A stretch of 64,000 nt of DNA from Bolinopsis microptera. Taxonomy: Eukaryota > Ctenophora > Tentaculata > Lobata > Bolinopsidae. The DNA is taken from NCBI RefSeq assembly GCF_026151205.1, contig NC_087081.1:2919246-2983245 (forward strand), given 5' to 3'. A model generated the notes under the pieces. The model worked only from the letters and a program-made list of their open reading frames with translations. It made no database searches and was not told the DNA's origin. Made by a program: the position numbers and the translations under genes. Positions 2,998 through 63,253 of this stretch are shown in pieces. Each line of letters starts with the position of its first letter. Position 1 is the first letter of the stretch.

Positions 2998-3023
2998 AGT
3001 CACGTGACCACACCAACCAATCA
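2998..3023 (+). promoter_or_regulatory. E-box/CCAAT composite
   Basis: GTCACGTGACC at 3001 with CCAATCA at 3017, 16 bp start to start. Confidence 0.55.
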
Positions 3024-3606
3024 GGACACAAAAGGTAAGGACACCTCGACAGTCACTGTAAATGGTAATGCAATCCCGAGATGGCATCCAACATGTGAGC
3101 TCCGACTAAATCAGGGACTGCTTCCGACATTGTATTGGAGGAGGAGGAGGGATTCAAAGTAATAATGACTGAGGTCTTACGGAGCAGCTGCACTTCAACT
3201 AACGCATCAATAATTCATTATAACATACCTTGAGACCCCACATCCATCATCCATCAAAGACATCATTACGTTGCAGTGTAAAGATCAAATTCCCTTTTTT
3301 GGGGTCGTAATTTGGTGGAGATCCACCGAAAGATTGTATCAAATTTAATCAAAAAGAATCAACTTAATGATTTGGGCCCTGTAATTTAGTGTAATTACCT
3401 CTAGTAGGTAGATTTACAGCTATTAAGATTGTTTTGCTACTTAGACTGATATATAATGTCACGTAATCTTCCGAGTATTCAATAACACGGACAGAGGAAT
3501 AAGGAGACAAATAATAAAATGCCAAGAGGCAAATTAGGACAATTATTTAACAATCATTTAATGTATAATCATAAATACCCAGACGTTCACTTTAATCAGG
3601 CAGAAA

Positions 3607-3721
3607 GGCTACCGGACAACTGAACCCAATTTAGACAATTTAGTCATTTAGACTAACCCTAACCAATAAAGCTGATTGGTTAGTGGGAACTAGGTTCAAT
3701 TGGGTTCAGTTGTCGGTCACC
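3607..3721. mobile_element. 115-bp foldback (MITE-like) insertion flanked by a 23-bp direct repeat
   Basis: The ends are inverted repeats of about 24 bp (left GGCTACCGGACAACTGAACC; right arm ends GGTTCAGTTGTCGGTCACC). CGTTCACTTTAATCAGGCAG+AAA stands on both sides (3584-3606 and 3722-3744). The interior contains CTAACCCTAACC, two telomere-type repeats, and an inverted pair around ACCAAT/ATTGG. Confidence 0.75.
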
Positions 3722-3744
3722 CGTTCACTTTAATCAGGCAGAAA

Positions 3745-4472
3745 TTATAACGGGATTAAATAAAATCTTAAATCTTAAGAAAAGTGGGAATGTTGTGAAC
3801 TGTATTTTTAAACCTCCAGTAATTATTGAATGTTATAGGCAAACTTGTGAGAACTGTTGAAATTAACAAGCAACATTAGGAACGAATATTTAAGTTTTAA
3901 AACTGTTCCATTAACACTAGTATTATATGAGATGATTTAAGAAATGAAAACAATCCCGAAACTAGGTTAAACAAAGCCAGCATCCACTTACTAACAACTT
4001 AACAGACTCAAGATAACCAAAAAATTATCTTGAAAATGAAAATAAAATCTTTCAATTTTGACATGTAGAAACCAGATAAGACCCACCAGACTGCAACATT
4101 GTCCTACGACAATGAAACCCACAAGTGAACCGGATTCTAAATACAATTTAAACAGCCTCTGAGTGGCACTAAATGAATCTTCAATTTAAACAGTCACCAA
4201 CACTACAACATTGTTAGACTCCCGCCACAATTGCACGCAATTTACCCGCAGAATTCTTCTGTAACAAAATAACACGTCCAACAATCCGACATCATACTTT
4301 CATAGACCCGAAATGTTAAATAAAGGTCCTTTGTTATAGACCAGAATGGTAAATAAAGTCTAGTAACCCATGTGAGAAGTGGCTCAGTTTTATAACAATG
4401 TCTAAACAACTCTAACCTGTAAACTAACCATGCAAGGTTAACGATACTAACAACCCGTATCAATTTACATTT
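3745..4472. other. No gene recognised
   Basis: AT-rich sequence between the foldback element and the 17-bp array; nothing distinctive seen. Confidence 0.6.
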
Positions 4473-4826
4473 CACTACAATTTACATTTCACTACAATTT
4501 ACATTTCACTACAATTTACATTTCACTACAATTTACATTTCACTACAATTTACATTTCACTACAATTTACATTTCACTACAATTTACAAAGAAGATGCTG
4601 CTAATTTAGTATTTACATTTCACTACAATTTACATTTCACTACAATTTACATTTCACTACAATTTACATTTCACTACAATTTACAAAGAAGATGCTGCTA
4701 ATTTAGTATTTACATTTCACTACAATTTACTACAATTTACAAAGAAGATGCTGCTAATTTAGTATTTACATTTTACTACAATTTACTACAATTTACAAAG
4801 AAGATGCTGTTAATTTAGTATTTATT
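4473..4826. repeat. 17-bp tandem array with interspersed spacer
   Basis: Unit ACATTTCACTACAATTT, repeated in runs that are broken four times by a spacer ACAAAGAAGATGCTGCTAAT+TTAGTATTT. A GA-rich microsatellite follows at about 4833-4855. Confidence 0.97.
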
Positions 4827-4899
4827 ACTGCAGAGAGAGAGAGAGAAAGAGAGAGGCTTCACAACGTGTTAAGCCGCATTTAATTGCAATATATGACGG

Positions 4900-6313: not shown

Positions 6314-6415
6314 TCCAGACGAAATAAACTCACACATTTTCATCAGATGCTCCATTTAAAGTCCTGATATTGACGAAATAAACTCTGAAATTTTCATAAG
6401 ATGCTCCATTTAAAG
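6314..6415. repeat. Direct duplication of about 55 bp
   Basis: GACGAAATAAACTC and AGATGCTCCATTTAAAG occur twice, just left of the hAT-like element. Confidence 0.85.
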
Positions 6416-6433
6416 ACTGATACTAGGTAATAT

Positions 6434-7718: not shown

Positions 7719-7726
7719 GGTAATAT

Positions 7727-9187: not shown

Positions 9188-9260
9188 ATCACGTGACAAG
9201 AAGGAACCAATCACAGTGGAGGTAACTGAAGTGAAGACCAATAGCAACTGTCCCAGGACA
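9188..9260 (+). promoter_or_regulatory. E-box/CCAAT cassette
   Basis: CACGTG at 9190, CCAATCA at 9207 (17 bp), another CCAAT near 9238, then TGTCCCAGGAC at about 9249. The whole order is repeated in the cassette at 9726-9805. Confidence 0.6.
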
Positions 9261-9680: not shown

Positions 9681-9805
9681 CCAATCTAGCTAGGTCTATT
9701 TGGTCACGTGCTTTGAACGACTGGTCACGTGACCAGAAAGAGCCAATCACAAGCAAGGAAATGGAGGAGACGGCCAATGGTAAGACAGAGAATTGTCCCA
9801 GGACT
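9681..9805 (+). promoter_or_regulatory. E-box/CCAAT cassette
   Basis: CCAATC 9681, CACGTG 9705 (24 bp), CACGTG 9726 (21 bp), CCAATCA 9743 (17 bp), CCAAT near 9773, TGTCCCAGGAC at about 9794. Confidence 0.6.
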
Positions 9806-10794: not shown

Positions 10795-10867
10795 CCAATC
10801 AAACTTGAGAATTTGGTCACTTGTCAAATAAACGAACCAATGAGAGGCTTGAGAAGTAGCACGTGAT
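10795..10867 (+). promoter_or_regulatory. Alternating CCAAT/E-box cluster
   Basis: CCAATCA 10795, CACTTG (decayed site) 10818, CCAATGA 10837, CACGTG 10860: spacings 23, 19, 23. The last 35 bp closely resemble 45224-45255. Confidence 0.65.
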
Positions 10868-12147: not shown

Positions 12148-12218
12148 CATGTGATTAAAGGAAACGCTGTGATTGGTTTATCCAAATAGCACGTGATAGA
12201 AGGAAACAATCTGATTGG
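12148..12218 (-). promoter_or_regulatory. Alternating CCAAT/E-box cluster, minus orientation
   Basis: Read on the minus strand: CCAATCA from 12218, CACGTG from 12195, CCAATCA from 12176, CACATG from 12153: spacings 23, 19, 23, the same geometry as the plus-strand clusters. Two more CACGTG sites lie at 12299 and 12327. Confidence 0.65.
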
Positions 12219-12332
12219 TCACCCCTGGCGCACGGTCCGTGCTTACCTTGTTATTAACTGGAACATTTTCAAACCACATAAGTAGTACACGGGACGCGCA
12301 CGTGTTTATATTAGATGTATGAAGTGCACGTG

Positions 12333-13628
12333 CAAATTGGGCCGCGTGGTTGATGGTTGGGGACCCACAGGTGCAGGGTAGCAACCACTTAATCAGTGGA
12401 GCATCACGATAATTGGGTCATTGGTTAGCTGCCGATGATACCAGAAGGATACTGATAAAACAGTTATTGTGTAAGATGGGACCAGTTATTCAAACCGTAG
12501 TTATCTGTATGCGATAAAACAAGACGTGCACCTGTGCACCATGATAAGTAAGACAGATAAGAGTTTGTTATCGTATTAGAAGATAGTAGAGATGCAGATA
12601 ACATGAGTAGGTAAACTTTATAGCTCAAGGGATAGCATTCCTTTCGATGAGACATCTTTAAGTACTCATATATCGTATGGGTTCAAACAACCACGTTAAG
12701 GTATGTCATATTTTAAATGTTTTGATACAATTATAACAAGCATTAATTGTGTTTAAATCAAAGCCATGAAACCTTGCATTGGCAGGTCAGCATGATAAGG
12801 AGCAACATAAACTATTTATTTTCAGTTATTTTAGGATTTTAAAAATTTCTCAAACTATAAATTCGAAAACTTCAAAACACCTTGCGCCTGCGATTTACTA
12901 CAAAAACAAGGCAGTACAATAAGGGCACAATAAGGGACACACTTATACTTATAGGGACACAATGGAGGTTTTAGCAAGGTTATCAAGCTGCTGTAGCCGG
13001 GTAACCATGGTGACCAGTAGCTATGAGTACGGTAACCAGTAGCTGAGGCTTCTGGGGGCTTGGTCGACTGCCGGAAGTCAAACGTCACTTTTCCAGAGAA
13101 TTAATTATGCCAATAATTTGGGAGCGTCCTCTGCAATGTTTTGCATTGGATCAAATTTGTAGCGAAAAAGGGACAATAACCTTTGTCCGAAAAACGTAAT
13201 ATTCGCGACAACTTCAGTAATTATGCTGCAAACACTTCAGAGACAATGTAGCTGATATAATTCGAACAGACTGGAAACTATTGACAATTATTGCATCGTG
13301 CAAACAGAACAAAAACGTTGGGAGAAAACTTATAGAGACCTCAGCTACATGCCACGACAAATTATATAATTTAGTTATGACGATAAAAATCATAATTCCC
13401 GGCCAGGAATTGATACCCAATATCGGACAAACGCTCTGTGGGCTGCAATTGCCATTCACCAAGTACCAGCCACTAGAATACGTTAGAAACTTATTACAAC
13501 ACTACAAATCTATTACGTTTTTTGAGAATTATGTAATGTAACGTGATGGAAATATTTTAAACGGGCATGTCCTGTCCAAACCCATAATTCGTTGTAACTT
13601 TGTTTGAAAAGCATTAATAAAGAGGGAT
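12333..13628. other. No gene recognised
   Basis: Short frames on both strands without domains, up to the retrotransposon insertion. Confidence 0.55.
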
Positions 13629-13637
13629 ATACATTAC

Positions 13638-14653: not shown

Positions 14654-14730
14654 CACGTGACACAGATGGAACGTTTTGATTGGCTGATAGAAAACGCATT
14701 GTGTTGTGATTGGTTGTCGTGAGTAACGTG
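14654..14730 (-). promoter_or_regulatory. CCAAT/E-box cluster, minus orientation
   Basis: On the minus strand: CACGTT from 14730, CCAATCA from 14713 (17 bp), CCAATCA from 14684, CACGTG from 14659 (25 bp). The expected E-box between the two CCAATs is absent. Confidence 0.55.
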
Positions 14731-15637: not shown

Positions 15638-16005
15638 GTGCACCACGGAGTTCACCACGTGCACCACGGAGTTCACCACGTGCCCCACGGAGTTCACCAC
15701 GTGCACCACGGAGTTCACCACGTGCCCCACGGAGTTCACCACGTGCCCCACGGAGTTCACCACGTGCCCCATGGAGATCACCACGTGCACCACGGAGTTC
15801 ACCACGTGCACCACGGAGTTCACCACGTGCCCCACGGAGTTCACCACGTGCACCACGGAGTTCACCACGTGCCCCACGGAGTTCACCACGTGCACCACGG
15901 AGTTCACCACGTGCCCCACGGAGTTCACCACGTGCCCCACGGAGTTCACCACGTGCCCCATGGAGATCACCACGTGCCCCACGGAGTTCACCCCGTGCCC
16001 CATAC
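15638..16005. repeat. 21-bp minisatellite carrying CACGTG
   Basis: About 17 copies of CACGGAGTTCACCACGTGCAC, with two main variants (GCACCACGG and GCCCCACGG) and a rarer GGAGATCAC variant. The variant order shows a partly duplicated block of 7-9 units. Frames on both strands stay open (7-residue repeats such as TTCPTEF, HGVHHVP and NSVGHVV) because 21 is divisible by three; this is an artefact of period and not evidence of a protein. Nearly every unit holds CACGTG, so the E-boxes recur every 21 bp. Confidence 0.97.
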
Positions 16006-19062: not shown

Positions 19063-19080
19063 TGAGACTAAATATTAGGC

Positions 19081-20356: not shown

Positions 20357-20600
20357 CACGTGGCAAGCCTGTCACGTGACTAACCTAGAACCTACAAATG
20401 ATAACGTTCGATGGGATCATCTGAAACAAAACAAGGCGGAAGGTGTTTTGTTTGGGAAAAAGTTCAGATAAAGGAGCTCTGAACAAGTGCAACAATAGGG
20501 GTTAGGTAATCCAATCAGCACATTTCGTTTGATCACGTGACTCGCCAAGTCCAATGACCGAGCTTTAATTTATCACGTGATTTTGCAAAAACAGCACGTG
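20357..20600 (+). promoter_or_regulatory. Dense E-box/CCAAT cluster
   Basis: CACGTG at 20357, 20373, 20534, 20574 and 20595; CCAATCA 20511 and CCAATGA 20551. Order and spacing: CCAAT 20511 -23- CACGTG 20534 -17- CCAAT 20551 -23- CACGTG 20574 -21- CACGTG 20595. Confidence 0.65.
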
Positions 20601-23311: not shown

Positions 23312-23900
23312 AGTTTTAACTGATCGGAAGACTCAGAGTCGGACACTAGTCAGTAGTGACAGGCACATTTATTAATTTCCATACCACAAAGCCATAACTA
23401 TACAGTTTACTATACAATCACTGACGAATTACAAGTCAACACGTGCAGAATACAAGCAAAAAATCATAGTTTTAACTGATCGGGAGACCCAGAGTCGGGC
23501 ACTAGTCAGTAGTGACAGGCACATTTATTAATATCCATATCACAAAGTCACAACTTTACAGTTTACTATACAATCACCAACGAATTACAAGTCAACACGT
23601 GCAGAATACAAGCAAAACACAAGAGGAATACAAGCAGAACAAAGACAGGACACTCTTTCAGAGAATTCCAACGAAATTTAACACGCCCCCCTCGTCACAA
23701 ACAAATTTAGACTTTCCCTAAAAACAAACTTCCCCAGACTTAAATCCTCGACTAGATATCGCCAATCTGGTGCGACTGGTAGCCTCCTCCCAGCCACAGA
23801 CAGTGAACACGCCATGAAATGCGTGCTGTAAATCATTTTCACGAGCAGTTTCCCCCTTATCGTTGCACGTTGAGGTAGTTTAACCCCGACACAGATCTGC
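23312..23900 (-). mobile_element. Possible LTR-retrotransposon 3' remnant
   Basis: Read on the minus strand, a purine run (GACGAGGGGGGCG near 23690) is followed by TGTTAAATTT, the layout of a polypurine tract and LTR start. The LTR-like part contains AATAAATGTGCC, a polyadenylation-type signal. It also holds two tandem copies of a 156-bp block (23312-23467 and 23468-23620), each with a CACGTG. No integrase or polymerase frame remains. The assignment rests on layout only. Confidence 0.4.
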
Positions 23901-24543: not shown

Positions 24544-27500
24544 CTGAGGAAGGGATAAGGATAAAGTTCAGTGCTTCCACGATGAAGGGTAGTGTTTGAT
24601 CTAGAAATTCTATGGCTAATTTTTTTCATAAACAAAAACAATGAGAAGAAGATATGAGTAGAGCTCAAGCTTATAGAACAAACTAATAGCCAATCAAAGC
24701 TTCTCAGAACTCCTGAAATTTGAAAATTCATGGAAGTGGAGCTTTCGATTTAAAATTTGATTCTGAAAATAGAACTATTAATAAACCAATACTTACATCT
24801 TCGTTAATGTTGTTATTAATAGGTTCGGTGTTCTTGAACCATGTAACTTCCGGCTCGGGAATGCCTAAACAATCACACGGAACGTTCAGATCTCCCCCTT
24901 CCATAACGGTCAGGTTTCTGCTCGGCAATGGGAATTCTGGTGGCTCTGAAATTTCGTGTGGTTAATTCTTCATTCGACAAGGAGAAAAGGGTTATTCACT
25001 CGAGATATTTAATATCTGTTATCAGATCGGTTCAGTTACTCGATACCTGATCATAAGAAATAATTCTTAATACTGATAGATGAGTCATGAGAAATGTATG
25101 TTGTGGGCACGTGTAGACAGTGAATCAGACTTTAACAAACATGTACAAACATAATAATATGTGCATTGGCCATTGTGCAATATAAAAGTCTTCAACTTCG
25201 ATACAAGATCGTGTGCACGAAACACAGTTAATGAAAGTTCGTAAAATTTAAGCGGGCCAGAAAAACGAAATATTCGATCTCGTGGCCGGTAACGCGCGCA
25301 CATGTTATAGTCGATGTTGTCAACAAATTGCATACCTTTAGATACTATTGTGATTTTCGCGCGCTACGTAAAATCTACCAACTTGTGGTCCAATTTCTAA
25401 TAGTGAACTCAAGCAATTTGCGGCTTATGATTCCAGACAGTTTTCAGATAACAGACAACACCGTAATTCAGCATAAACAACCTAATTACAGACAACCAAA
25501 AAAGAGTTTAACGATCGTTCAAAACCGCCCGAAATTGAAGAAGCTAACTGAAAATTTGTCTGAAAACCGACCAGATATACTCAGACACAGTAAGCTTTAC
25601 CCTTAATATTGCATGTGCAATCACTACGGACTTAAGGACATGCTTCATTGCCATTAGAGACCGTTGGGAAGTTCTTATCAACCTATAAGATCTATTAACC
25701 TGGATGAACTCGATCTTAACCTGATAGCCGATAGATCCAAACACTGAATCATCTGTAGATCCAAGGAGAAGATATGAGTCAACAAGTGTGGAAGGATAAG
25801 TGATGTTACTTGATATTATTGAGCTTGTGTCTGATGATTGACTCCTTAGGTACAAGGTCGTGAGTCTCTGATTGGTCTGAGACACAAAATATATCATTAT
25901 TCCGATACAAATCCATTCCACAGAAATTGTACGCCAGACCAAATGAAAGCATGCACATAATTGAAGAGACTCTTTCACAATTTGATTTATCAATCAAATC
26001 ACAGATTGCATATTATGGAAGCATGTATCATTATTTCGTATGCAAACTAAACCTATTCAAGTGTGTTAACATACTCTAAAGATTACACGGGTAGTAGCTG
26101 ACTGGGGTGGTGAGCAATGACTGTTGACCTACACACAGTTCGATTACATATTCAGTGGTCACTGGTCATAATTTTTTCACTCAAAGTTCAAGTCGGATAT
26201 GCGGATATGCGGATATGTGACATAATTAGACGGCAGACTGTGGAATGCGTAAACCGTAAAACCACGAAACTTAAAGCTCACGTACTCAGTTCTCATGCAG
26301 TTGTTTGTTGACTTGAGGAGCACAAGTTTAATGCTGGGATCAGGACTCAAGGAAAAAGCTTAATAATTTAATGTAATTTTAAAAGTGTGTTCACTGAATA
26401 TTGGCCCAATATTTGATAGGGCGAGCCTGAATTCGTTCAGAAGACAGTCTGGATCTGATTTACCAACTCATTCGTATCTCTTAGGCTAGAGGATATGGAG
26501 TCTCTAATGATTCGTCTAAGTACAGGATTCAGCCTAATGCAGACTCCAGAAATAGACCTACAGTGCAATGGGAGACTTCTAACTCACTTCCGTGTAGAGC
26601 ACGGAAAGCAAAGTATAGTACACACTCCAGATCTTGTTTTCAAGTACGATCTGATGCAACATTCCTAATGTATCTTGTTTGGAAATCTAGGATGATATCT
26701 CCAGGATTCAGTCGTGAAATATCAAATGAGGATGAACTTGTAACATATAGTTTCGGATTAAGGCGATTAAATCAAACAAGGACTATCAGACAGCAAAATG
26801 CAGCGAATTTCTTAATCTCCCGCCTCAAAAAGTCAAAAATGCAGTGAATTTCTTAATCTCCCGCCTCAAAAAGTCAAAAATGCAGTGAATTTCTTAATCT
26901 CCCGCCTCAAAAAGTCAAAAATGCAGTGAATTTCTTAATCTCCCGCCTCAAAAAGTCAAAAATGCAGTGAATTTCTTAATCTCCCGCCTCAAAAAGTCTA
27001 AAATGCAGCGAATTTCTTAATCTCCCGCCTCAAAAAGTCAAAAATGCAGCGATTTTCTTAATCTCCCGCCTCAAAAAGTCAAAAATGCAGTGAATTTCTT
27101 AATCTCCCGCCTCAAAAAGTCAAAAATGCAGTGAATTTCTTAATCTCCCGCCTCAAAAATGCAGCGAATTTCTTAATCTTTCGACTCAAAATTCAGCGAA
27201 TTTCTTAATCTTTCGCCTAAAAATTACTCACGCAATAAAGTGAGGTCAATGAGACTGACTCTGACTTTGTCGTTGTTCTGAATAGCTGTACAGTAGTACC
27301 GTCCCTCGGCGTCAGATCCAAAGTTGGGTATAGTCAGGAGAACCGTGTTGTCGCTAACTATAGATCGATCAGGTAACTCACCTCCGTCCTGTTAAAGGGA
27401 TTAATTTAATTCACTTTGTAACCACACAGTAATTAAATAGTAATTGAATAGGTTAAGTTCATTAGATTTAGAAAATCAAACAAAGTGTAAGATTTAGTAG

Positions 27501-30500
27501 GAGATTTATCGGCGAATAAGTGGGGCCGGTAAGTAACTGATCATGTGGTATATTTCATCATCCGTCCTGACTAGAAAATGTTTCAAATGGTAACAAAGTT
27601 AAGATGCCACATAACCGCTGAAGATTTTAGCAGCAATTAAGCAATTAGTTTGAAATTTGAATCATATCAACTGTCCGACTTTCCAGTTTACCAATCAATC
27701 TTTAATTTGGAACGTTAGAGATAAAATAATCGGTAAGTATGAGAATATATTCATCATCGTCTACTGTTATCTGAGGCATGATCGTGTCATCGAGTAAAAT
27801 GTCTGGTCTGAATCTAGTTTCAATCCCAAAATTGGATTTCAATAACTAATGAGATTTTTCCAAATAAATCAGTGAATTTACAGTGGAAATCACAGGAAGG
27901 GATAGCGAAGACCTAATACTTTCAATAGGTATTATTATGTAATGCCGGTAAGGAATTGATTTACCATTACGGACTTGTGAAATGCTGTATAAGGGAACTT
28001 ATATATTGAATTGCAGTCTCGTGCATTTTCCGCTTCGCAGTAATAATATTTTAGTAATTATCTCAAGTGATTTTTTATCCCAGACGATATCTCTAAACGT
28101 TTTAATCGAAATATTGTTTATTGTCTGATCAAATTATCCAAATGGATAGAACCTTTTTCAGCAGAGAAGACATGCGAAAAACTATTTTTTTCAACTGTCG
28201 CGTCTTCAGTCTTGAATAATCGATGTATATATTACAACATCAGTGGACTCTAACTTTAATATAGCTTTACATTATAGGTCACTGGGATCCGATTCCATAA
28301 TAACTTAGAATGAATATCATAAGGACAGACATTCTAAAAATTCTAAAAATCTGTTGATTATACCTGTTAATGTTTTTACAATTCCCATCGATAAATTAGA
28401 TATTCATATATAAAAAAGAAATGTTACGTACCTTGGACCAACGGATGGTAGGGGTTGGTGTGCCATACGGGATACACTCCAATATTGCCGTACTCCTACT
28501 CACAACCGCAATGTTATCCAGCGGCACGTATATGTCCGCGGGTACCTCTTCTATTCTACCTGAGGTATTGGGCGTTAAGATGCGGTTCTGTGCGGTTAAA
28601 TGAAGTGTTGTGCGGTAATATACCAGTATTGTGCGGTTTTTAGCACAGTGTTGTGAAATTTTTAGCACATTCACGACACTTCTCAAGCAGTCAACCATGG
28701 TTGGATGGTTTTGGCTGGGTTTAAAACCGCTACAAAGCTAAGGATGGTAGACACTAAAAAGATTTAAAATTTACTTCACACCACTGCCCAGCCTGATGGA
28801 AATATTTGAATGTGAAACGGTGTGAAAAAAACAACTGCATAGTTTTTGTAGAAGTCTGTATGCGTCTGCAATTAATAAGACAACAAGAGCGTCTGCAATT
28901 AATAAGACAACAAGAGTGGCTTCTTGACCACTAGCTTGCTATGATCGACCAAATATTCACCATTGTGAGGTTTCACGTAGTATGGGACGGTTTGATGCAG
29001 TATTATGCGCTCTTCATGACGTACTGCACGACTTTGTATTGTAAAATTCTCAACATTTTAGATCTCATTATCCTTAAAAGAGACCCACGAAAAACAGTAT
29101 AATTTCCAGTAATTACAAGAGTGTACCATCACATAACACTGTTCATCATCAGATGATCGTTTGGTTAAGATAAGGGTGATTCAGTGTGAATTAAAACCAC
29201 ACAATTCCTCCATCCTATGTTACTTCCTGTATTATTCCTATATTACATTTAATCGTGTAATAACCGAATCTAATCGTGGCAAGAGTAAATGAAGCTAAGA
29301 AAATACCCTCTTTCTTGGAGCACACATTCGCAAACTATAATTGAATTGTCACCCTCTGCTAGAGGTGTTTAACACATGGCCTCCATTGTTCGAATAACTG
29401 AGGACCATTGTTAGGGTAAGTTAGTGTGGTTGGGATAACCGGAATATCTGATAACCTCACCCCACATTCTATAAAAACATTACAAGAGGGTCATTCATCA
29501 TAAGGTCCATTCATCAAGTTCATCAAGTTCATCATTGTTATAATATTTGGAGATATACGTAATATGGGCAGTAATTGTGAGTACAATTATCGGCTACTAC
29601 AAATACTTGAGTATTATCCATTTATTCACCATTTTATTTTGAGTTAGTCCTGATGAAGTGATATCGAGAGATAATGGAATGGCATACGTCACACATATTG
29701 GCGAAACATTTTTGGAAAATGCTACATTCAACCCGTTTAGTACTCGCGGCCTGATAAGTCGTTCAATCGAAGTTTTGTCACAACTTTAAGGAACAGTGTA
29801 AACTATAAATCAAAATAAAGTAACGAAAGTTGATGAAAATACCACAAATCACTGTTGGTGGTTTTTATAGCTAATAGTTTTCATCATACTGATGAAAATG
29901 GCGATCAAGCGAGTCATGACTACCCACTTTTAACGGTCTTATCGGCGATGTACTGAGTTTTGGGACTCTTAAAACTATTACCTTTCTCCACCAACCTCTA
30001 GAATAATCTAACTCTGATCCGTGAGATTTTACCCCTAAAAAGGTAACCGACAAAAAATGATTATTATAGTTACAGAGGTATTTGGCTAGTGTAAGTTACA
30101 TTGCATAACTCTTACCAAGAAATCTGTACACTGCTATTTCATTGACTGCGGCCTTCTGTAATCAAATAAGCGTTATTATTTAGAATACCCATCAGCCATC
30201 TTCAGGTTAATATCAAATTTGATAATTTTATCAAGCTCTCTTTGCATTGTTCACCAAAATGCGGACAGACACCCTAAAAGCACTCTATTGTACGTGCTGT
30301 GAGAAAAGAGCAGATACAGTCCCTCCTGTAGAAATATTTCCTGGCTTTTATATAAATTAGTTAGGATACTTTCAGCCATGTTTATTGTTTATGTCTACAT
30401 CGTATTTGATTTTATCAAAAGTTTATCTGCATTACATATTATCTGAGATCAACCCATATCATGAGTACAGAGGTATAGGGACAGAGGTATATCACATACA

Positions 30501-36500: not shown

Positions 36501-39500
36501 GCTATGATGAGGTCTCAGTGTAAATGCAATTGTTTCAATCGATTTCTTTGACTGAAGTAATTTTAACATCTTATTGGAGGTAAGAACTGAATTTCAGCAC
36601 TCGGCAAGACAGTAATTTCAAATCACCTCATCAAATTGAATCAAAACCCAGTATGTCTCACTCACTAACAGTAGGTATTTCAATAAAGAGAATAAATTGT
36701 GGGCATCTGGTACACTGAAGACTTATCACCTAGAAGAGCCGATCACCGACCCATGCAAATAAAATCAAGACCCTTTCAGAACACATAATACATGATTAGT
36801 GATTCCAGATGAATCATCAAATCAACTATAATAAGGAGCTGCAATAAATTATTGGATCATGAACAGTAAATATCATTTAATCACAATTTAGTGGGCAGGG
36901 AAGGCTGCTAGTGAAGCGGACATGACTCATGTCACGTGATCCGTTGTGAGGGTCACGTGATCCGTTGTGAGGGTCACATGATCCGTTGTGAGGGTTACGG
37001 TTTGTAACTCTGAAGAGCGCCAGGTTTGAGACAGTAGTGGATAAGATAGTGTGGCGAGGACTGAGGGGAAGTTTAACCAGGTAAACTTGGGCCCGACTTC
37101 ATATGCCCCCGCCCCCCGCACCGCCCTCGCCCCTCTTCCGAATCATATCCGTCTTTGGTTTTCCCTTTTGCGGATATAGACATAATGAAGTAATGACTAA
37201 AGAGAAAGACTTAAGAGAAGGCTGGGTGTTTATGGCACTATGCCAATGACATCGTCGGATACTATTTACCGTGAAAATATTGTGATAGATGTAATTATAG
37301 CCTTCGAGTAGATTGAACGTAGTGATATGCCTGTTGGCATTTTGTTCATCTTTGATTTCTGGAACTGCTTCTAAAATCAGTTGAGACCATTTTTTTGAAC
37401 TGTATTTACTGTAAATCTTAAGGAAAACTAGAAAATAAGAATGACGTGCCATTTCAGCTTTTTCCAGGTACTGGGAAAACATACTGACTAATTGATTTTG
37501 TATCGCCCAGTAATACCAAATCCAGGCCCACAAAACTAATGTAAAACCGTAATTGAATTTGATCTAAGATATCATAATGAAATGAAAAAACTGATCTAAT
37601 TTTTTTTTTCTATTTGTAGAACAACAAAATTGATACGCAACATTGAATATGAAGAATGAAGTCCTGAACTAAGGTAAATCTAATTTTATGGTCCATTTTT
37701 ATTATGGTTCTAAATTGGATGAAATATGAACCACACCTATATCTCATCAGTTTTGATTATAGATAAGAACAGGTACGTTAAATCCAAATTTATGATAAAC
37801 AGGAGAACTTACTAGATTAGATCATAATTGTACCTTTTAGGAATTTGAAATATTGTGTTCTGTTCAAACATGATAAAAATAGGACATGACGCCCTTGAAA
37901 TTTTATTTGACCATACTTTAAACCAATTGCCAGATTATGCAAATACTCCAATATTATGTAATACTTATCGGGACATACTTATCAGGTGATAATAATATAT
38001 ACTAGATAAAATCACTTGTCGCTATGCATTCGCAGAGTAGAATAACCACAAGTCACTCAACTTGATTTTAAAGATTCACTCACTACACGCAATTCTTTTG
38101 AATGAAGTACTCATATTATTGGGAAACCAGCTGCTGGTTAGCAACACCCTGGCAACACCCTGGCAACACCCTGGCAACACCCAGATAAGATATCCTGACC
38201 CTATCAGTGTCATGGAACTTGGTGTAACTTTAAGTAGCAAGTTATAGGAGACATGGTCTCCCCTGACTAGCAGACCATTCTGACCGGTCTTATACCCGGT
38301 TAAATCAGCTGTAAGTTACGTTATAATATAAGAGCTGGTGTGTTATCACAGTGGACTAACTGTTAAAAGCTAAATATAAGAACTCAGCCAGTTGACAATT
38401 CAACCTTCGTCCCCATAGTTGTTACACAGTTGTTACACAGTTGTTACACAGTTGTTACACAGTTGTTAGACAATTCTTACAGAGTTCTTACAGAGTTCTT
38501 ACAGAGTTCTTACAGAGTTCTTACAGAGTTCTTACAGAGTTCTTACACAGTTTATACACAGTTTATACATAGTCCTTACACAGTTCTTACAGAGTTCTTA
38601 CACAGTTCTTACAGAGTTCTTACACAGTTCTTACACAGTTCTTACACAGTTCTTACACAGTTCTTACACAGTTCTTACACAGTTTATACACAGTTCTTAC
38701 ACAGTTCTTACAGAGTTCTTACACAGTTCTTACACAGTTCTTACACAGTTCTTACACAGTTTATACACAGTTTAAACACAGTTCTTACACAGTTCTTACA
38801 CAGTTCTTACACAGTTCTTACACAGTTCTTACACAGTTCTTACACAGTTCTTACACAGTTCTTACACATTTTATACACAGTTTATACACAGTTCTTACAC
38901 AGTTCTTACACAGTTCTTACACAGTTCATACACACAGTTCCATTGAAAGTTGAGGATCAGCTGAGGAGCAAGGAGCTTCAAACAGTGCTCGGCAAAACAT
39001 GAGCTGTAAGTCCTTAGTAAGAAAAGTCTAGAACGTTTGGCATACGTAATACGCTCAAACAGTGGCCGTCTAAGATCAAACGATCCTTCGGATGAACTGT
39101 AATTGGGCAGTTTCCTATTTAGGCAAACAGTCGGCAAATCTCTTTCTTATTCTCATATGAAACCATACTGATAACTTTGTTGCTTTTATGCTATCGACAG
39201 CGACAGGGCGTTATACCGAGTAACGCTCTATCGATAGCATAAAGATATATAGGTGAATGTAAGTACTGACTACTAAAAGTAAAGCAATCTTTAAGTTTCT
39301 TAGGAAGACGTTTACTTATCAGCTGATGTGTGTGAATTCCCTTTCAGAACTAAATAAAGTCATATTTGGTGGAACCACAATTATTATTCATTTGAGAACT
39401 TTCTCACTTTATTAATCAATTATGCTGATTGAAATCCGATCATTTCAATCATGATTCGAAAATCAGACATATTATTTTCGTGCAGGGAACAAATTTAGGG

Positions 39501-42500
39501 CATACATTCACTGGAATGAATTTTAATCTTAATCAGACGATCGAAATTGTTCTCAAAATTGCGTAATCTCGGTTGTCGAGGAACTCTGACGAAAGTCACA
39601 GCTTTCGGCGGGATTGTTAGGAAAATCAGTCTTATTCTCAGTTTGTACTTTGGCGGTGATCTGCAAAGTATAAGTACAGTTCAATTGAACCGTTTCTCGT
39701 AAGTTTTAACTCAGGGCGTCATGATCCTAACAAATATGTGTTCCAGGTAGGACATGGCACAATAATTACAATAATTAACATGATAACTATGATTATCACA
39801 ATATAATTGCACCAGACCATGTAATATAATGGTGGCCTTGTACAAAACCAGTGAATTCAAAACACATAAGCCGATATTCAATTGCTTACACGCTTTCCAA
39901 AAATAGAACTGCAAAGAAGAAACTTGTAGCTTAGACCATGTTAAATTGCGGGATAAAAAACAATTGCACACGGAAGTTCGTAATGAATGGGTCGAGCGTT
40001 TGTCGGGCACATTTCATTTTTACATTCGGTGTAAGAGCGTTGAAAGTGAATGTATGGCAGTGTGACTTGTGTGTGTGTATGTCTGGTGAAACAAAAACCT
40101 AACATATTATAATGGATATTTAACTTCTGCGAAAAATATATATTATCCTGTATGCGGTGACAACTGACTGAAATCAAAATTATAAATAATTTCAAAGAAA
40201 AAACAAACGGGCGTTGTTAAAACAGGTGAAAATAGATAAAGATAGATAAGACAAGTGTCAAGTACTCACAAGGCGCAGTCAGCGTTGCTTTACGGGAACG
40301 AATAACCCCCATCTTGTTTTCTGCTTCACACGAATACTCTCCGGCATCCTGGAGATAACATTCATATAATAATTCCTGGTAACTTGCCAAACATTCATAC
40401 AATTCCTGGTAACTTGCCAAACATTCATATAATTCCTGGTAACTTGCCAAATATTCATATAATTCCTGGTATCTTGCCAAACATTCATATAATTACTGGT
40501 ATCTTGCCAAACAGTCATATAATTCCTGGTATCTTGCCAAACATTCATACAATTTCTGGTAACTTGCCAAACATTCATACAATTTCTGGTAACTTGCCAA
40601 ACATTCATATAATTCCTGGTAACTTGCCAAACATTCATACAATTCCTGGTAACTTGCCAAACATTCATATAATTCCTATTTCCTGATATCTTGCCAATCG
40701 TATCAATATTACTTAAAGATATTCATGATATTATAATCCGACACATTCATACACCTAGAATCAAAGACTTGGATAATGGATATCAGGGGGCCGGCGAAGC
40801 ACGCATCTTTTCGTCTGTGACAGCAATAATCCTTTTTGATTGGTAACTGCTACTAGTATAGCTTGAGCCGACAATACCTTATCAAGCAAATATTTCTTCT
40901 AGCTTTATTATGGTTATGCAACACATATTTTCCCATCCATAATTCCATATGTCAAATATTATGCAAACTGATTGGAATCTTACATAGGACAGTTTTTTAA
41001 ACCTGGACAACTCGCTCGTCACGACCGTTTAACTTGTTAAAGTGGTATTTTTTCCTAACAACTGTGGCTGAGCTGTAATCACCTCCGCCAAAAATAAAAA
41101 CTCGATCAATTTATTTGGGTTTTAAAAACTTACAAGTTAGAAGCTTGCTTCAGAGCCTTCTTAATCTAAGAAATTCCTAACATAATTTACATATTATTTA
41201 GCATATGTTTTGCATATTATGACCACGTACCGTGTTATGGCGGACACCGGTTATAGTCAGTATTCGGTGGTTGTAAAGGCCGTCCACCGCGGCGTCACTG
41301 ATGTGTCCCTTCGCTGAAATGACATCCAACGTTACATTATATAAATTTTAACCTATTTTGATAAGAAAATTAACAGCATCAATGAAAAAACCAAAACGTT
41401 AATTAGATCATAAATGAAGCGTCAATTTCAATGAAATATTAAAGCCAAAGCTGTTCTTTTAACAAACGATAAGCAAATGGTGTTATTCAATATTTATAAT
41501 AAATATGTTAACATTCCTAATTCTGAAGATAAAATACCCGAACCATCCTTTGAAAAGTAACACCCCCATTTTAATGAAACAAGAACCGAAAATTTACGAT
41601 TATAAATAAGTTTTTATAATAATTGGAAAATCGAAAAGTGTGGGAACTCACGGATGAGACGCTGGGAGTCCTTGTACCAGACGATAACGGGGGCTGGGTA
41701 TCCGCGCGCACTGCACGTGAACTGTACCTGTCCTCCTGTCCTGTTCACCTCAACTGGACTAGGTTCTAACGAAAAAAACGGGCCTGAAAAGAATTTATAT
41801 ATTAGTATATTATTTACTGTTTGAATTATCGGAAATTGATAGTTATTGAGTTAGTGGAAGTTATTAATTAGTTGATGTGTCGGGATGGATATTGGGTGCA
41901 TAAGTACGAGGTAGTACGAGTGTAAATATAGCCGTGTTAAAGTTTCTTGTAAGTTAAACATTTCTGAAACATGAGATCATTCTTGCTGTAGTGAAAGCAA
42001 AACTACGCATCAACATGAAATCATAAACCCACATGACAAAATTACACTAAGTATTCATGTTCGACATTCTTGAATGATACTTAGTGATCATTGCATTAAA
42101 TAAATTTATAGTCAGTAAGATTAAGAAGTTTAACATCTTTCCTGATGAAATAACTCAAAATTCGAGTCAAGATCTGCAAATTGAAGAATTCAGACTCATA
42201 AAACTTGTCATCACTCGCTTCTCCAACAGAAATAAAAACAAGGTAAATCCATCAGTGTAGCAGATGGGTTACTGGCTTCTCCAACAGAAATAAAAACAAA
42301 GTAAACCCATCAGTTTAGCAGATAAGGAAAGCGGACTTATCTTACCCGTCACATTTGAACCTGCTGTATATTTCTTTACCGTCCCATGACCAACTTTTTG
42401 AGTTGGGCTGGCGACCGTTTTATCTAATTCTGATACGATCAGAAAATCAGACTCATTTCATTTTCATGATCAACTTTACATTCAATTATTAACATAATAT

Positions 42501-43946: not shown

Positions 43947-45183
43947 GATGAAGAAGAGGAGCTCTTTTACGACAACTCAAGCAAACTGATGAAATGGTTA
44001 GAAGTCTCAACTTATATACTGGGACCTGGGTCTTTGATAAGGCAGGGGGAAGACAATCTATGAAGTTATCATTTCAAGGGGAGCGGCTTCATTATTCAAA
44101 ATGCAGGCCCTTTGTGATCGCCTGTTGCAATGCGGGGGACAATAATTGGAAATACTAATTGAAAAGCTGCAGATCCCAATAATACTGCAATACAATTACA
44201 CACAAACTAAGAACTGGTGCAACCATCTATGGTGCAACCAACTATGGTGCAGCTGAGAGCTGAACACGTGACATTAACAAAGCAGAGGGTATGGCAGGGA
44301 CTAGGGAGTGGAAGTAACAAGTGTCAAAACTCTGGAAATCATCGTGTGATTACCACCTTCGTGTGAGTCCGAGTCAACCAAATGAATTTACAATCTCAAA
44401 ACTCGTGAGGGGTGTTCTGAAATACAGTTAGGAGCTTCGGTGACCTGAGGCGGCGGGTGGCGCTCGTTAATTTCTGTAAGTAAACAAATTATATTAAATT
44501 TAATGATGCGTAAATTGAAAATAGACTGTCGATTGCCTAGTCTATTGAATAGGGAGAATAGTAGGGAGATCTGCACTTCTTTTATTATCGTGAACTTCTT
44601 CTTTTCTCAAGAACGTGAGATTTACTTATTTATAAGTAAGGTACTGTATTTCTATTATAATAAATTCGTTTGAAAGTTAAATAATTGTCCTAATTATTTC
44701 TTGCAGACCATGTGGAAAATATTGACAAAATTCTGCAAGAAAAAATGACGATAAGGAAATCCCATGTTCTCGAGAAAAGAAGAAGTTTAAACCTCCATTC
44801 TATTCGCGATGAACACAGACCTGCACAAATCTCAAGTTCTTAAAAATACATACGTTCTGCAGATCTCGAATAATGTTAATACAGACGCGTTCTGCAGATC
44901 TCTATTTCTGATGAACGCAGAAGTGCACAGATCTCAAGTGAACGTCGCCGAAACGTGAACCCAGTGACGAAAGACCGTGTCCGGCTCGACTAAGGCTCAA
45001 AATCACGAAGCAGCAAAATCCAGACATCCCGGCAGCCTACCATTGGAACATGACCAGACACGTGACCCTTCACTGACCCGTGAGTGGCCAGTGGGTCTGC
45101 GCTGGCTGAGGTAATCCTATATAGGACGAGGGGATGACGGTGGGGAGCGTACTTTATGTTGTAATCCCCAGGAACGGGTCCGA
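43947..45183. other. No gene recognised
   Basis: CACGTG at 44265 and 45059. At 44780-44950 a loose repeat of TTCTGCAGATCTC and GCACA(A/G)ATCTCAAGT. Confidence 0.55.
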
Positions 45184-45252
45184 CCAACCACAAACCGATA
45201 CCTCATCTCACGGGTCATGTCAGAACCAATGAGAGGGCGTGAAAAGCACGTG
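45184..45252 (+). promoter_or_regulatory. Alternating CCAAT/E-box cluster
   Basis: CCAACCA 45184, CACGGG 45209, CCAATGA 45226, CACGTG 45247: spacings 25, 17, 21. The older members look mutated. A further CACGTG lies at 45059. Confidence 0.6.
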
Positions 45253-45790
45253 ACTCAAGTATGTGGAATTGGTGTTTAATACAATCAAGAGGGGATTTTA
45301 ATAACCCACTCCCTGTAGTCCAGTGAATAGTGGGAGAGAGAAGAGTAGTAGATAGTTTCTACTGGTCCCTTTATAAGGAGGTTTGAAATGGAGCACAAAT
45401 TGCTGGGGGGGGCTAGGTATCAGTATCACACGTGTAATCTAGAGGGTGGGATCAAGAGGATGATCTAGTCGAAACAGCTGAAAGTGAGACCCTTGTCCGG
45501 TCCACCAGGATAGATTTCATTAAAATAGTGAGCTGAGACTGAGAATAGACCGATAGTGCGGTTAATTAAATCAAGGTCAGCCTGCTGCTGCTGCTGATGA
45601 AAGTTAAGCTATTGAAAACCACTATGACATGTTGAGTGGTGACCGCACGAAAATAGTCGGGTGGTTTTCTGTTCAAGATATATCATTGTCAGCAAAGTGG
45701 TTGGAGATATTGGTTGATGCTACGAGGAGAGGCCTGTGAACCATTTAGGCATATTTAAAAAGGAACGTATATATCAGCGGTATGGTATAA

Positions 45791-50120: not shown

Positions 50121-50180
50121 CACGTGATCCACCACATGGTGTGTCACATGATCTACCACGTGGTGCGTCACGTGGTGTGC
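50121..50180. promoter_or_regulatory. E-box cluster
   Basis: CACGTG at 50121, 50157 and 50169, plus CACATG sites between; TCACGTGGTGTG is partly tandem. Confidence 0.5.
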
Positions 50181-51811: not shown

Positions 51812-52796
51812 GGCAGTAGACGGAACACGTACTTCAGGTTCTGTTTATTATTCGCTAGCTCGTGCTATTTGTTATTTAATGCGAACATAATATTTTAGAC
51901 TACTGATATCATTATTATTAAATTAAAGTCCTTCAAATAATATAACTAAATATCAAAACTACTGATATGTGTACTATTTTGAGGAGTATTAATGGTAGAA
52001 TATTTTACCCACAAATGATTCATTAGTCGGAGTCAGATTGGTTCGCTCATGGTATAAGCAATAACAATAACAACTGAATTTGTCAAAGTAAATTCAACCA
52101 GAAAAGAGCAGTACAATGGAGTACGGATAAAAGTTACATTGAATTATCGGCATAGGGAGGAAAAATAATAAATAAAACTATAAAAATCGTCTAGCAAAAT
52201 CAAGGATATAATAATATTCTCAAACCTAAGGGACCATAACGTGATACTTTACTCCGTTTATAATATTGTGGTGTAGAGTTCTATTTCGTTACGAGGCTGA
52301 GGAGTTGTATGGGACCATGTCAACGCACAACCAAACCTTATTAAAACCAGAGGAATGCATTAAATGTCACGTGCCAGAGCTTTACCTACATGATGGATTT
52401 GGGCCACTTTGCGAACCAAAAAATGAGAAGTAAAATATTGAAATGTAAAAATCGTGAGATCTAGCTTGACTGGATACGTATCAGACTGGTACCAACCATT
52501 AAGTCATTTCCGATATTCTCAATTGTTGAATTGTATGACCTAGTACCAAGTAACAATTTATGCCGCTATTATCCTTTGTAAAAACCGCACCAACAATTTC
52601 AACCAAACCTCATAAAACCTAAAAACGCAGTACAAGTGTTGAGAACTGTAGTAGAAAGTTAACCTCGCAACAATACAATTGTCATACACACACACATACA
52701 GCAGGACCTGACTCGACCTAACGAGGTCACATCTAGACAACATCACGCTACTACCACACCTCTCAACCAACCACAACCCTCCAATACAGTCATCAG

Positions 52797-52869
52797 CCAA
52801 TCAGAGAGCAGGATTCTGCCCACGTGACCAAGCTGTCAGCCAATCACCGGACAGTATTGTGCCCACGTG
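52797..52869 (+). promoter_or_regulatory. Alternating CCAAT/E-box tandem of 43 bp
   Basis: CCAATCA 52797, CACGTG 52821, CCAATCA 52840, CACGTG 52864: spacings 24, 19, 24. Two similar 43-bp units begin CAGCCAATCA and end GCCCACGTGAC. Confidence 0.7.
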
Positions 52870-56522: not shown

Positions 56523-56604
56523 CACGTGACACGTGTCACGTGACAGGTAACGAACAAGTTAGTGATTGTCACGTGACGGGGTAGTTAGAGGGTCACGTGA
56601 TTGG
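56523..56604. promoter_or_regulatory. Five CACGTG sites in about 80 bp
   Basis: CACGTG at 56523, 56530 and 56537 (7-bp steps with 1-bp gaps), then 56570 and 56594. The last runs straight into ATTGG (CACGTGATTGG). Confidence 0.6.
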
Positions 56605-60352: not shown

Positions 60353-61926
60353 GGTAAGTGGGCAGGATGTTCAGGGGAGGGTGACTAAGGAGGGTGACCA
60401 GAGAGGATGGTGACCAGGGAGGAGGGTAAGTGGGCAGGATGTTCAGGGGAGGGTGACTAGGGAGGGTGACCAGAGAGGAGGGTGACCAGGGAGGAGGGTA
60501 AGTGGGCAGGATGTTCAGGGGAGGGTGACTAAGGAGGGTGACCAGAGAGGAGGGTGACCAGGGAGGAGGGTGACTAGGGAGGAGGGTGACTAGGGAGGAG
60601 GGTGACCAGGGAGGAGGGTGAACAAGGGAGGAGGGTGACTAGGGAGGAGGGTGACTAGGGAGGAGGGTGACTAGGGAGGAGGGTGACTAGGGAGGAGGGT
60701 GACCAGGGAGGAGGGTGAACAAGGGAGGAGGGTGACTAGGGAGGAGGGTGGCTAGGGAGGAGGGTGACTAGGGAGGAGGGTGACTAGGGAGGAGGGTGAC
60801 CAGGGAGGAGGGTGACCAGGGAGGAGGGTGACCAGGGAGGAGGGTGACTAGGGAGGGTGACCAGAGAGGAGGGTGACCAGGGAGGAGGGTGACCAGGGAG
60901 AAGGGTGACCAGGGAGGAGGGTGAATAGGGAGGAGGGTGACTAGGGAGGAGGGTGACTAGGGAGGAGGGTGACCAGGGAGGAGGGTGAACAAGGGAGGAG
61001 GGTGACTAGGGAGGAGGGTGACTAGGGAGGAGGGTGAATAGGGAGGAGGGTGACTAGGGAGGAGGGTGACTAGGGAGGAGGGTGACCAGGGAGGAGGGTG
61101 AACAAGGGAGGAGGGTGACTAGGGAGGAGGGTGACCAGGGAGGAGGGTGAACAAGGGAGGAGGGTGACTAGGGAGGAGGGTGGCTAGGGAGGAGGGTGAC
61201 TAGGGAGGAGGGTGACTAGGGAGGAGGGTGACCAGGGAGGAGGGTGACCAGGGAGGAGGGTGACCAGGGAGGAGGGTGACTAGGGAGGGTGACCAGAGAG
61301 GAGGGTGACCAGGGAGGAGGGTGACCAGGGAGAAGGGTGACCAGGGAGGAGGGTGAATAGGGAGGAGGGTGACTAGGGAGGAGGGTGACTAGGGAGGAGG
61401 GTGACCAGGGAGGAGGGTGAACAAGGGAGGAGGGTGACTAGGGAGGAGGGTGACTAGGGAGGAGGGTGAATAGGGAGGAGGGTGACTAGGGAGGAGGGTG
61501 ACTAGGGAGGAGGGTGACCAGGGAGGAGGGTGAACAAGGGAGGAGGGTGACTAGGGAGAAGGGTGACTAGGGAGGAGGGTGACTAGGGAGGAGGGTGACC
61601 AGGGAGGAGGGTGACCAGGGAGGAGGGTGACTAGGGAGGAGGGTGACTAGGGAGGGTGACCAGGGAGGAGGGTGACCAGAGAGGAGGGTGACTAGGGAGG
61701 AGGGTGACCAGGGAGGAGGGTGACTAGGGAGGAGGGTGACTAGGGAGGAGGGTGACTAGAGAGGAGGGTGACTAGGGAGGAGGGTGACTAGGGAGGAGGG
61801 TGACTAGGGAGGAGGGTGACTAGGGAGGAGCGTGACTAGAGAGGAGGGTGACCAGGGAGGAGGGTGACTAGGGAGGAGGGTGACTAGGGAGGAGGGTGAC
61901 TAGGGAGGAGGGTGACTAGGGAGGGC
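60353..61926. repeat. 1.6-kb G-rich 18-bp minisatellite with higher-order repeats
   Basis: About 80 copies of GGGAGGAGGGTGACTAGG-type units (variants GACC, GAAC, GAAT, GGCT). The left edge has a 72-bp higher-order unit containing AGTGGGCAGGATGTTCAGGG. Rare variants (GGCTAGGG at 60751 and 61183; GAGAAGGG at 60901 and 61333) are 432 bp apart, showing a 24-unit duplicated block. Confidence 0.97.
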
Positions 61927-62131
61927 TGTACAAAGGTAGCAGGCAGGACCGGGGAGGAACAAAAGAACTAACTATCTCACTAACAAACTAACTCAGCGCG
62001 CAATGCGCATATATTGACACAATGGAGCGACCTGACACCCACAATGGGAGCGCGGAAATTGAGGGAGTTCCTCTGACAAATGGAAAGAGGGTGTTGGGGG
62101 AGCTGGGAGTCACGAGGTTTGGTGGTGATGA

Positions 62132-62161
62132 CCAATCACAGGGCGAGTAGGCGGTCACGTG
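62132..62161 (+). promoter_or_regulatory. CCAAT/E-box composite
   Basis: CCAATCA 62132 and CACGTG 62156, 24 bp apart, just right of the 18-bp minisatellite. Confidence 0.55.
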
Positions 62162-63205
62162 GTGTGTGTCCTCCAGTGGGAGAGAAGAGAGACCACTGGA
62201 CTATATAATGTATCATGAGATCTTAACAGAAGTGCGATATATAATTATATTATTCGGACTGTTTAGTACCTGCAATCTGCATGCTTTACACGATATACGT
62301 ACAATTTAGATAAGCCACGCAAGGTTGTTCGAGGCCTACATACTTACACAATATATTATATAATACGTTATTAAGAATAAGATTAATGTAAATGTAGCTG
62401 GATATTAGATATGAAATATTTTATATTAAATCCATAATTCACCGAAGAGCCTCCATTTGTATTCTGAGTTACGAAACGTTTTGAATTTGTCTTCATATCG
62501 ATTACAGCATTTAAACAATATAGAATTCAGTTTACAGGTAAATACCTTCACAAATGTGGACAAATTATGTTTTAAGGAGATTTTGTGGCTAGAAATTCAC
62601 AAATTGGGAAATTCAACAGTATACCTAGTTCTTTTATTAAGTTGAACCCATCTTGCTGCAGTATTAATTCGTGGCCAATTTTTCCAGTATGAAATATGTT
62701 GGCAGGATAATTCTATCAAGTTTCCAGTATACAAACAAAATTTCGTTAAATAATCCGTTTTACCGAACATTCCTAGTCCATAGATTACATCACCTCTCAT
62801 TTCCGGAAAGAGGGAACCGTACCAAATTAGAAACATTTTATCCGAAAATAAAAATCATACGTCTAAGATGAACTTCCATCGATTCGAGGACCGGAAATAC
62901 AACTTAAACACGGCAACTTTTGTCTTCAACAAATACAATACGTTCCTACAGAGTGCAGACAAGGTGCCTTGTACTACAACGACACTTGAACAACCTCAAA
63001 ACTGAAGATGAAGCGCCATTACCCAAGTTCCTAGCAGTTACCATTACTATTACCACGTAAGGTAGAGAGAGAGAGATGAGCATCAGAAAACAAAGCGTCA
63101 ATACTAAGTTCAATAAACAGAGTGGGTGGAAGTGTAGCCATCAAATGAGTCGTTATCGAAACTGTAGGCATAACACGTCTAGACAAAATTATTACCAGCA
63201 AGCAG

Positions 63206-63253
63206 CCAATCATACTGTCGAGTACTCGTCACGTGGCGAGGGGGATCCAATGA
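63206..63253 (+). promoter_or_regulatory. CCAAT/E-box/CCAAT composite
   Basis: CCAATCA 63206, CACGTG 63230 (24 bp), CCAATGA 63247 (17 bp). Confidence 0.6.

Follow-up and report, generated by a model that had tools for sequence, protein, structure and literature searches.

The 64-kb window analysed here (64,000 nucleotides of contig NC_087081.1 from the ctenophore Bolinopsis microptera, positions 2,919,246 to 2,983,245 of the forward strand) contains a dispersed lattice of two short motifs, CCAAT and the E-box CACGTG, placed at preferred distances from each other around one probable immunoglobulin-family gene. The arrangement recurs outside the window, and the site grammar is real and genome-wide in this ctenophore. 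Distances are given as offsets, from the start of one motif to the start of the other, and pairs within 80 bp were considered. The site clusters of the window are as follows, with offsets in brackets.

2999..3023, plus strand: GTCACGTGAC followed by CCAATCAG (16).
9189..9213, plus strand: TCACGTGA to CCAATCA (17); additional CCAAT at 9238.
9681..9749, plus strand: CCAAT 9681, CACGTG 9705 (24), CACGTG 9726 (21), CCAATCA 9743 (17).
10795..10865, plus strand: CCAATCA 10795, decayed CACTTG 10818 (23), CCAATGA 10837, CACGTG 10860 (23).
12148..12220, minus strand: CCAATCA 12218, CACGTG 12190 (23), CCAATCA 12176 (19); decayed CACATG 12148.
14654..14713, minus strand: CCAATCA 14713 and 14683; CACGTG 14654 (24 from 14683).
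20357..20600, plus strand: E-boxes 20357, 20373, 20534, 20574 and 20595, CCAAT 20511 and 20551; the order is CCAAT, E-box (23), CCAAT (17), E-box (23), E-box (21).
45042..45272, no strand assigned: loose cluster of minus-strand CCAAT 45046 with CACGTG 45059 (18), CCAATGA 45226 with CACGTG 45247 (21), and minus-strand CCAAT 45272.
52781..52869, plus strand: CCAATCA 52797, E-box 52821 (24), CCAATCA 52840 (19), E-box 52864 (24).
56523..56604, no strand assigned: five E-boxes (56523, 56530, 56537, 56570, 56594) and a minus-strand CCAATCA; no pair at 23-24 or 16-19.
62132..62161, plus strand: lone pair of CCAATCA and CACGTG (24).
63206..63253, plus strand: CCAATCA, CACGTG 63230 (24), CCAATGA (17).

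CACGTG was found 72 times in the window, 16 times inside a minisatellite at 15638-16002 and 56 times outside it. The counts outside omit 15638-16002, and the arrays at 23312-23617, 36931-36999 and 50121-50174 were kept in. The E-boxes form 34 groups of one or more. The octamer TCACGTGA is present 16 times and GTCACGTGAC seven times. A first-order Markov background (30 runs) gave a mean of 7.5 CACGTG (maximum 16) and of 0.6 TCACGTGA (maximum 2), far below the 56 and 16 observed. The initial annotation of the window had counted about 57 hexamers outside the minisatellite and 16 full octamers, with about 7 and 1 expected, and had proposed comparing the density with a shuffled control; the recount and the background confirm its observation. 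In the 264.65 Mb of the genome scanned, where the reversed form of each pattern served as control, there were 28,279 matches to TCACGTGA and 4,201 to its reverse. This corresponds to a mean of 6.8 per 64 kb, and 20 arbitrary 10-kb stretches held 11 in total. The window is a rich spot for this octamer relative to the genome.

The CACGTG motif follows CCAAT at offset 23 in four pairs and at 24 in six, and CCAAT follows CACGTG at 16 (one pair), 17 (four), 18 (one) and 19 (two); each remaining offset is occupied by one or two pairs. Against these 10 and 8 pairs, 2000 circular shifts gave means of 0.26 and 0.55 and 2000 local jitters gave means of 0.50 and 0.90, and neither count was reached in any of the 4000 randomisations. 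Both distances had been described in the initial annotation, the first as holding in most cases. All 14 site pairs that it cited were correct, similar spacings are kept in its minus-oriented clusters (23 and 19 in 12148-12220, 24 in 14654-14713), and its decayed sites are present (CACTTG at 10818, CACGGG at 45209, and CATGTG at 12148, which is CACATG on the minus strand). A count of all hexamers from -30 to +45 around CCAATSA in the window, omitting k-mers that contain CCAAT and offsets -5 to +4, placed CACGTG at +24, +23 and -17, with one-base shifts, at the top. Chance as the origin of the spacing is rejected by the shifts, the jitters and the genome-wide controls described below. The base context of the CCAATs was also compared. 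NF-Y, the CCAAT-binding factor, has the consensus R-CCAAT-SA. Of 16 CCAATs picked by spacing alone 11 have this context, as against 16 of the 138 others in the window, which supports an NF-Y-type context for the spaced CCAATs.

Across the genome, the pattern CCAATSA-N6..32-TCACGTGA gave 886 matches compared with 52 for its reverse, and 642 of the 886 (72%) fell in two of the 27 allowed spacings, N15 and N16, where the reversed pattern had 1 of 52. The initial annotation had staked its proposal on a genome-wide peak near 23-24 bp, and this peak was found. The 100 matches listed (C1 and part of C2, contigs of this genome) have offsets of 22 (3), 23 (22), 24 (54) and 25 (8), with one or two at each of the others; 76 of the 100 are at 23-24, and 55 of 79 after similar linkers are collapsed. 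An exploratory pattern restricted to offset 25 gave 70 matches versus 5 reversed. The opposite order, E-box then CCAAT, gave 2306 versus 67. Because TCACGTGA is common and, among the matches listed, much of it lies in arrays of 18-24 bp units, plain count ratios overstate the pairing, and it is the spacing peak that is sound evidence. When a cAMP response element (CRE)-like octamer replaced the E-box, no such peak was seen, with 2 of the 100 matches listed at the corresponding lengths. A general tendency of CpG palindromes to cluster near CCAAT was rejected as an explanation: the CRE-like octamer gave 315 matches versus 78 reversed, yet a single repeat family supplies, by eye, about 79 of the 100 listed, almost every one of them at the same, different spacing.

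Both distances were then read together in triples of the form CCAATSA-N14..18-CACGTG-N8..14-CCAATSA, of which there were 1084, and none in the reversed pattern. Of the 100 listed, 33 were analysed, the other 67 duplicating a 41-bp satellite or a neighbouring match within one array. The first linker is less than 60% identical to this satellite in 27 of the 33. Their first offset is 24 (16 triples), 23 (8) or 25 (3), so that all 27 lie at 23-25 where 21-25 was allowed. The second is 17 (18 triples), 18 (6), or 16, 19 and 20 (one each), which places 25 of 27 at 16-18 with 14-20 allowed; the two offsets sum to 40-43. In three of the 27 the second linker is satellite-like (67-100%). Without these three, the first offset is 24 (14), 23 (8) or 25 (2), 24 of 24 triples, and the second is 16-18 in 22 of 24. 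A start offset of 17 leaves a gap of 11 bp between E-box and CCAAT; this gap is 10-12 bp in 25 of the 27 triples, and in the window it is 10-12 bp in six of eight pairs and 13 bp in two. Tandem duplication as the sole source of the 23-24 offset is unlikely, as only 4 of the 62 pairs listed on C1 recur as triples (by eye).

The abundance of E-box arrays allows a different account, in which the lattice has mainly an architectural or selfish role: E-boxes arrayed every 18-24 bp would keep chromatin open or draw recombination, and the CCAATs would be passengers. Pairs of TCACGTGA within 38 bp number 5449 versus 337 reversed, and among those listed many belong to short tandem arrays whose units measure 18-24 bp. 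This account predicts neither the sharp CCAAT offsets of 23-24 and 17 bp nor the R-CCAAT-SA flanks, and we consider it very improbable. In the first 2.6 Mb of C1, TCACGTGA is common to several minisatellites whose units are otherwise dissimilar (18, 19, 22 and 24 bp, among other lengths), and the E-box-to-E-box distances listed are mostly 18-24 bp.

A short repeat family spreading the sites had also been suggested in the initial annotation; this holds for part of the genome and fails for most sites of the window. The window pairs could descend from a repeat that carried both motifs and has since decayed (transposon ends or the 41-bp satellite), the geometry being inherited and without function. 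The satellite unit, CCAATCAGAGCACAGTATTCACACCACGTGACACAAACCAA, is itself a CCAAT/E-box composite and was found in several arrays, up to about 1.3 kb long among the matches listed:

C2:10945048-10945792, 41-bp satellite array.
C2:10991166-10991910, 41-bp satellite array.
C2:22904583-22905901, 41-bp satellite array.
C1:12028576-12028869, 41-bp satellite array.

Dispersed families carry the pair as well (9 and 4 of the 100 CCAAT-to-E-box matches listed), the collapsed genome linkers show a weak common base preference, and 2 of 14 site loci fetched from the genome have copies elsewhere. In the window, two pairs resemble the satellite, those at 52797 and 52840, with linker identities of 0.65 and 0.59 where the 99% point of chance is 0.53; they are the sole two of ten above chance. 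The other eight linkers are 24-35% identical to the satellite, with a chance mean of 33%, and linkers this random beside two intact motifs would be unexpected under neutral decay. At the site, neither the 13 window clusters nor the 14 fetched loci had flanks homologous to other DNA in a 306-kb collection (the window, the 14 loci and the 20 stretches, in which low-copy families can be missed), apart from a single cluster that matched itself internally. All 18 spaced window pairs lie outside tandem arrays. Arrays holding E-boxes were found by Tandem Repeats Finder (TRF) at four places, none with a strand assigned:

15638..16002: 21-bp minisatellite, 17.4 copies, 16 CACGTG; excluded from the counts.
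23312..23617: 156-bp tandem duplication, one E-box per copy (23440, 23596), without spaced CCAAT.
36931..36999: 21-bp minisatellite, 3.3 copies of GTCACGTGATCCGTTGTGAGG, two intact E-boxes, without spaced CCAAT.
50121..50174: 24-bp degenerate repeat, three E-boxes, without spaced CCAAT.

A single repeat family as the entire cause is rejected for the window by linkers and, within the 306 kb sampled, by flanks, and is retained for part of the genome. The window sites are chiefly not a repeat family, most linkers being unrelated, and descent of the window pairs from such a repeat is improbable. They resemble satellite DNA in that this genome has the 41-bp satellite and E-box arrays of 18-24 bp units; unlike minisatellites, the spaced pairs of the window come in one or two copies, with mostly unrelated linkers.

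The genes for the presumed binding factors were looked for in the genome. NF-YA was found at three loci, C7:5786332, C11:8466648 and C4:10257949; at C7 a single open frame covers the full DNA-binding region plus an asparagine-rich tail, and the C7 protein matches human NF-YA (PDB 4awl, 88.9 bits). The histone-fold family of NF-YB/C gave six matches, one with an internal stop, NF-YB and NF-YC not being separated from other histone folds. USF-like proteins are encoded at C7:4445715 and C3:9481866, with an incomplete one at C10:12730516; for the C7 protein the best PDB matches are USF2 (8ia3) and USF1 (1an4). From these matches, the genome is read as encoding NF-YA, NF-YB/C-type histone folds and USF. 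In the USF gene locus L026, the letters FYVM...IAP, which may resemble those of the human USF-specific region, stand shortly N-terminal of the basic region; the PDB chains that matched lack that region. The USF-specific region is placed N-terminal of the basic region in an excerpt of PMC4332324. Four E-boxes 20-22 bp apart lie in the 3 kb of L026 (2643-2712), and three, 21 and 27 bp apart, in the NF-YA gene locus L001 (1060-1113). Self-regulation through these groups is possible.

Composites of the same two motifs are known from human cells. In K562, according to the part of PMC7046753 drawn on, CCAAT lies 17 or 18 bp downstream of the E-box centre in most NF-Y/USF1 regions. In the sections of PMC7793273 used here, human USF1/2 and MITF lie 10-12 bp 5' of CCAAT, and USF1/2 are among the close partners of NF-Y. 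The stereo-aligned human composites thus share with the ctenophore sites the two motifs, the 5' position of the E-box and a gap of 10-12 bp (ctenophore mode 11 bp), and both occur partly in repeats, the human ones in endogenous retroviruses and long terminal repeats (HERV/LTR). The agreement claimed is with the 10-12 bp gap and not with identical histograms, as the measuring conventions may differ by a few bp. The ctenophore arrangement differs from the human one in a second, sharper E-box 3' of CCAAT (offset 23-24, gap 18-19 bp) and in its chaining into lattices of about 41 bp and into a satellite. The 3' arrangement and the 41-bp lattice were not found in the parts of the literature searched, a scope outside which most subscription journals lie. 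Of the grammar, the 5' half is known from human cells. A widespread distal regulatory motif of a ctenophore, the CTEP1/CTEP2 loop-anchor motif of Mnemiopsis, was considered as the identity of the sites and rejected, as it differs by description: it is GC-rich with two CpGs, compared with one in CACGTG (PMC12221973, in the portions used). The terms E-box, CACGTG, NFY and USF have no occurrence in the main text of that paper.

Taken together, the sites are probably composite cis-regulatory modules on which NF-Y would sit beside a USF-type basic helix-loop-helix leucine zipper (bHLH-ZIP) dimer at fixed distances. The initial annotation had proposed such a composite of NF-Y and bHLH-ZIP factors. 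That proposal, fixed geometry included, is supported by the spacing peak, the R-CCAAT-SA flanks, the factor genes and the human E-box-to-CCAAT gap; the enhancer function, and the binding of NF-Y and USF with cooperation through the fixed geometry, are inferred. NF-Y covers about 30 bp and bends DNA, and USF can bridge two E-boxes. In the proposed module, the NF-Y trimer would occupy CCAAT with a USF-type dimer adjacent, on one E-box 5' across a gap of about 11 bp, and a second E-box would lie 3' of CCAAT across a gap of 18-19 bp. The two E-boxes would flank one NF-Y at a distance of about 41 bp from each other, nearly four helical turns. Head-to-tail repetition of this unit would keep every spacing and give a lattice. 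Because the unit can be repeated without a broken spacing it fits the lattice observed, and this would explain how a satellite could arise.

A number of observations weigh against this reading. In the window, 42 of the 56 E-boxes have no CCAAT at a preferred offset; 11 of these 42 stand within TCACGTGA, as do 5 of the 14 that are spaced, so that the E-box flanks do not distinguish spaced sites. In the 200 kb of arbitrary stretches, offsets +24 (3) and -17 (2) were seen again, with similar counts at +45 (3), +26 (2) and +56 (2), and the top hexamers were supplied by array repeats; this sample is weak as evidence by itself, because other offsets equal these counts and array repeats lead the hexamers. 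The peak near 17-19 bp that the initial annotation expected genome-wide is present in triples (mode 17) and is broader among isolated pairs: the 100 E-box-to-CCAAT matches listed collapse to 36 with a broad spacing, 15-21 in 25 of them. Dispersed families account for 32 and 12 of these 100. Among the fetched loci, the site of L039 is locally duplicated and found also 18 kb away, and a copy of the L047 pair that differs by a single mismatch lies at C2:14278478. The functional NF-Y/USF promoter of mouse Miwi has a different spacing, according to an excerpt of PMC3355075. A domain scan of 10 frames, taken from 7 of the 14 loci, placed known domains next to four sites, in one case a reverse transcriptase.

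For the E-box, finally, MITF/TFE, MAX or other factors are also candidate readers. The modules would then be the same, with MITF/TFE, in a CLEAR-like manner, or another bHLH-ZIP factor in place of USF. The CLEAR/M-box of MITF/TFE has the same GTCACGTGAC / TCACGTGA palindrome, present here 7 and 16 times; CLEAR consists of E-boxes at lysosomal promoters and is not known to have a fixed CCAAT. MITF also shares the human distance to CCAAT, in the sections of PMC7793273 cited above. Against this stand the naming of USF1/2 as close NF-Y partners in human cells, in the same sections, and at least two USF-like genes in this genome, where MITF/TFE genes were not looked for. A reader other than USF is possible and, on this balance, rather unlikely.

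With NF-Y and USF preferred, a further step can be sketched, which we put forward tentatively and regard as doubtful. The NF-Y/USF spacing would be conserved since the ancestor of ctenophores and humans. Ctenophores would have extended it to a two-sided sandwich, in which USF dimers about 41 bp apart and in helical phase are joined by USF tetramers over NF-Y-bent DNA, reiterated as an enhancer lattice self-similar enough that tandem duplication made the 41-bp satellite. The spacing rules of transcription factors are commonly regarded as short-lived in evolution. The partly human-matching distances may represent a piece of gene-control grammar as old as animals; if so, the E-box-to-CCAAT gap common to human and ctenophore would be a rare regulatory syntax across animals. 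The second spacing and the satellite of binding sites would provide a natural series for gauging how NF-Y/USF action depends on distance.

The enhancer is weakly preferred over the promoter because the 34 E-box groups surround one probable immunoglobulin gene and because 2 of the 14 sites lie close to apparent internal exons, judged by eye: L046 near a Sec23/24 trunk and L050 near an EF-hand frame. Most modules may be distal or intronic enhancers. Mnemiopsis loop enhancers are mainly intronic (69%; PMC12221973, in the portions used). The gene of the window is represented as follows.

24731..41850, minus strand: three immunoglobulin-domain frames, 24731-24961, 28399-28737 (below the Pfam cut-off) and 41617-41850, probably exons of one immunoglobulin-family gene.

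The window is rich in minisatellites, with long tandem arrays of a 16-bp unit (60376-61924), an 11-bp unit (38417-38934) and a 9-bp unit (43448-43943). By eye, an open frame at 13621-14244 looks like the last part of a protein from a non-LTR retrotransposon; in Pfam it gave only DUF6451, below cut-off, and this domain also lies beside a reverse transcriptase in locus L041. A repeat CCAATGAGCGGGAAAC...TGACGTCA is often found in opposite-strand pairs about 1.6-2.8 kb apart, like the terminal inverted repeats of DNA transposons (C3:2410529/2413079, C4:2355936/2358207, C2:14419705/14422316), and TCACGTGACCTCAGACCCAATCA lies near some of its copies (C1:14038007).

Elsewhere in the genome, glutamate-receptor genes are clustered at C12:11782391-11809362 and C3:15860547-15936263, with several long open frames and 32 ligand-binding matches genome-wide. 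Two of these ligand-binding domains give good support for a ctenophore genome: they match the chains ML032222a of Mnemiopsis (231 and 241 bits) and 4zdm of Pleurobrachia (191 and 210), the next chains scoring much lower at 108 and 120.

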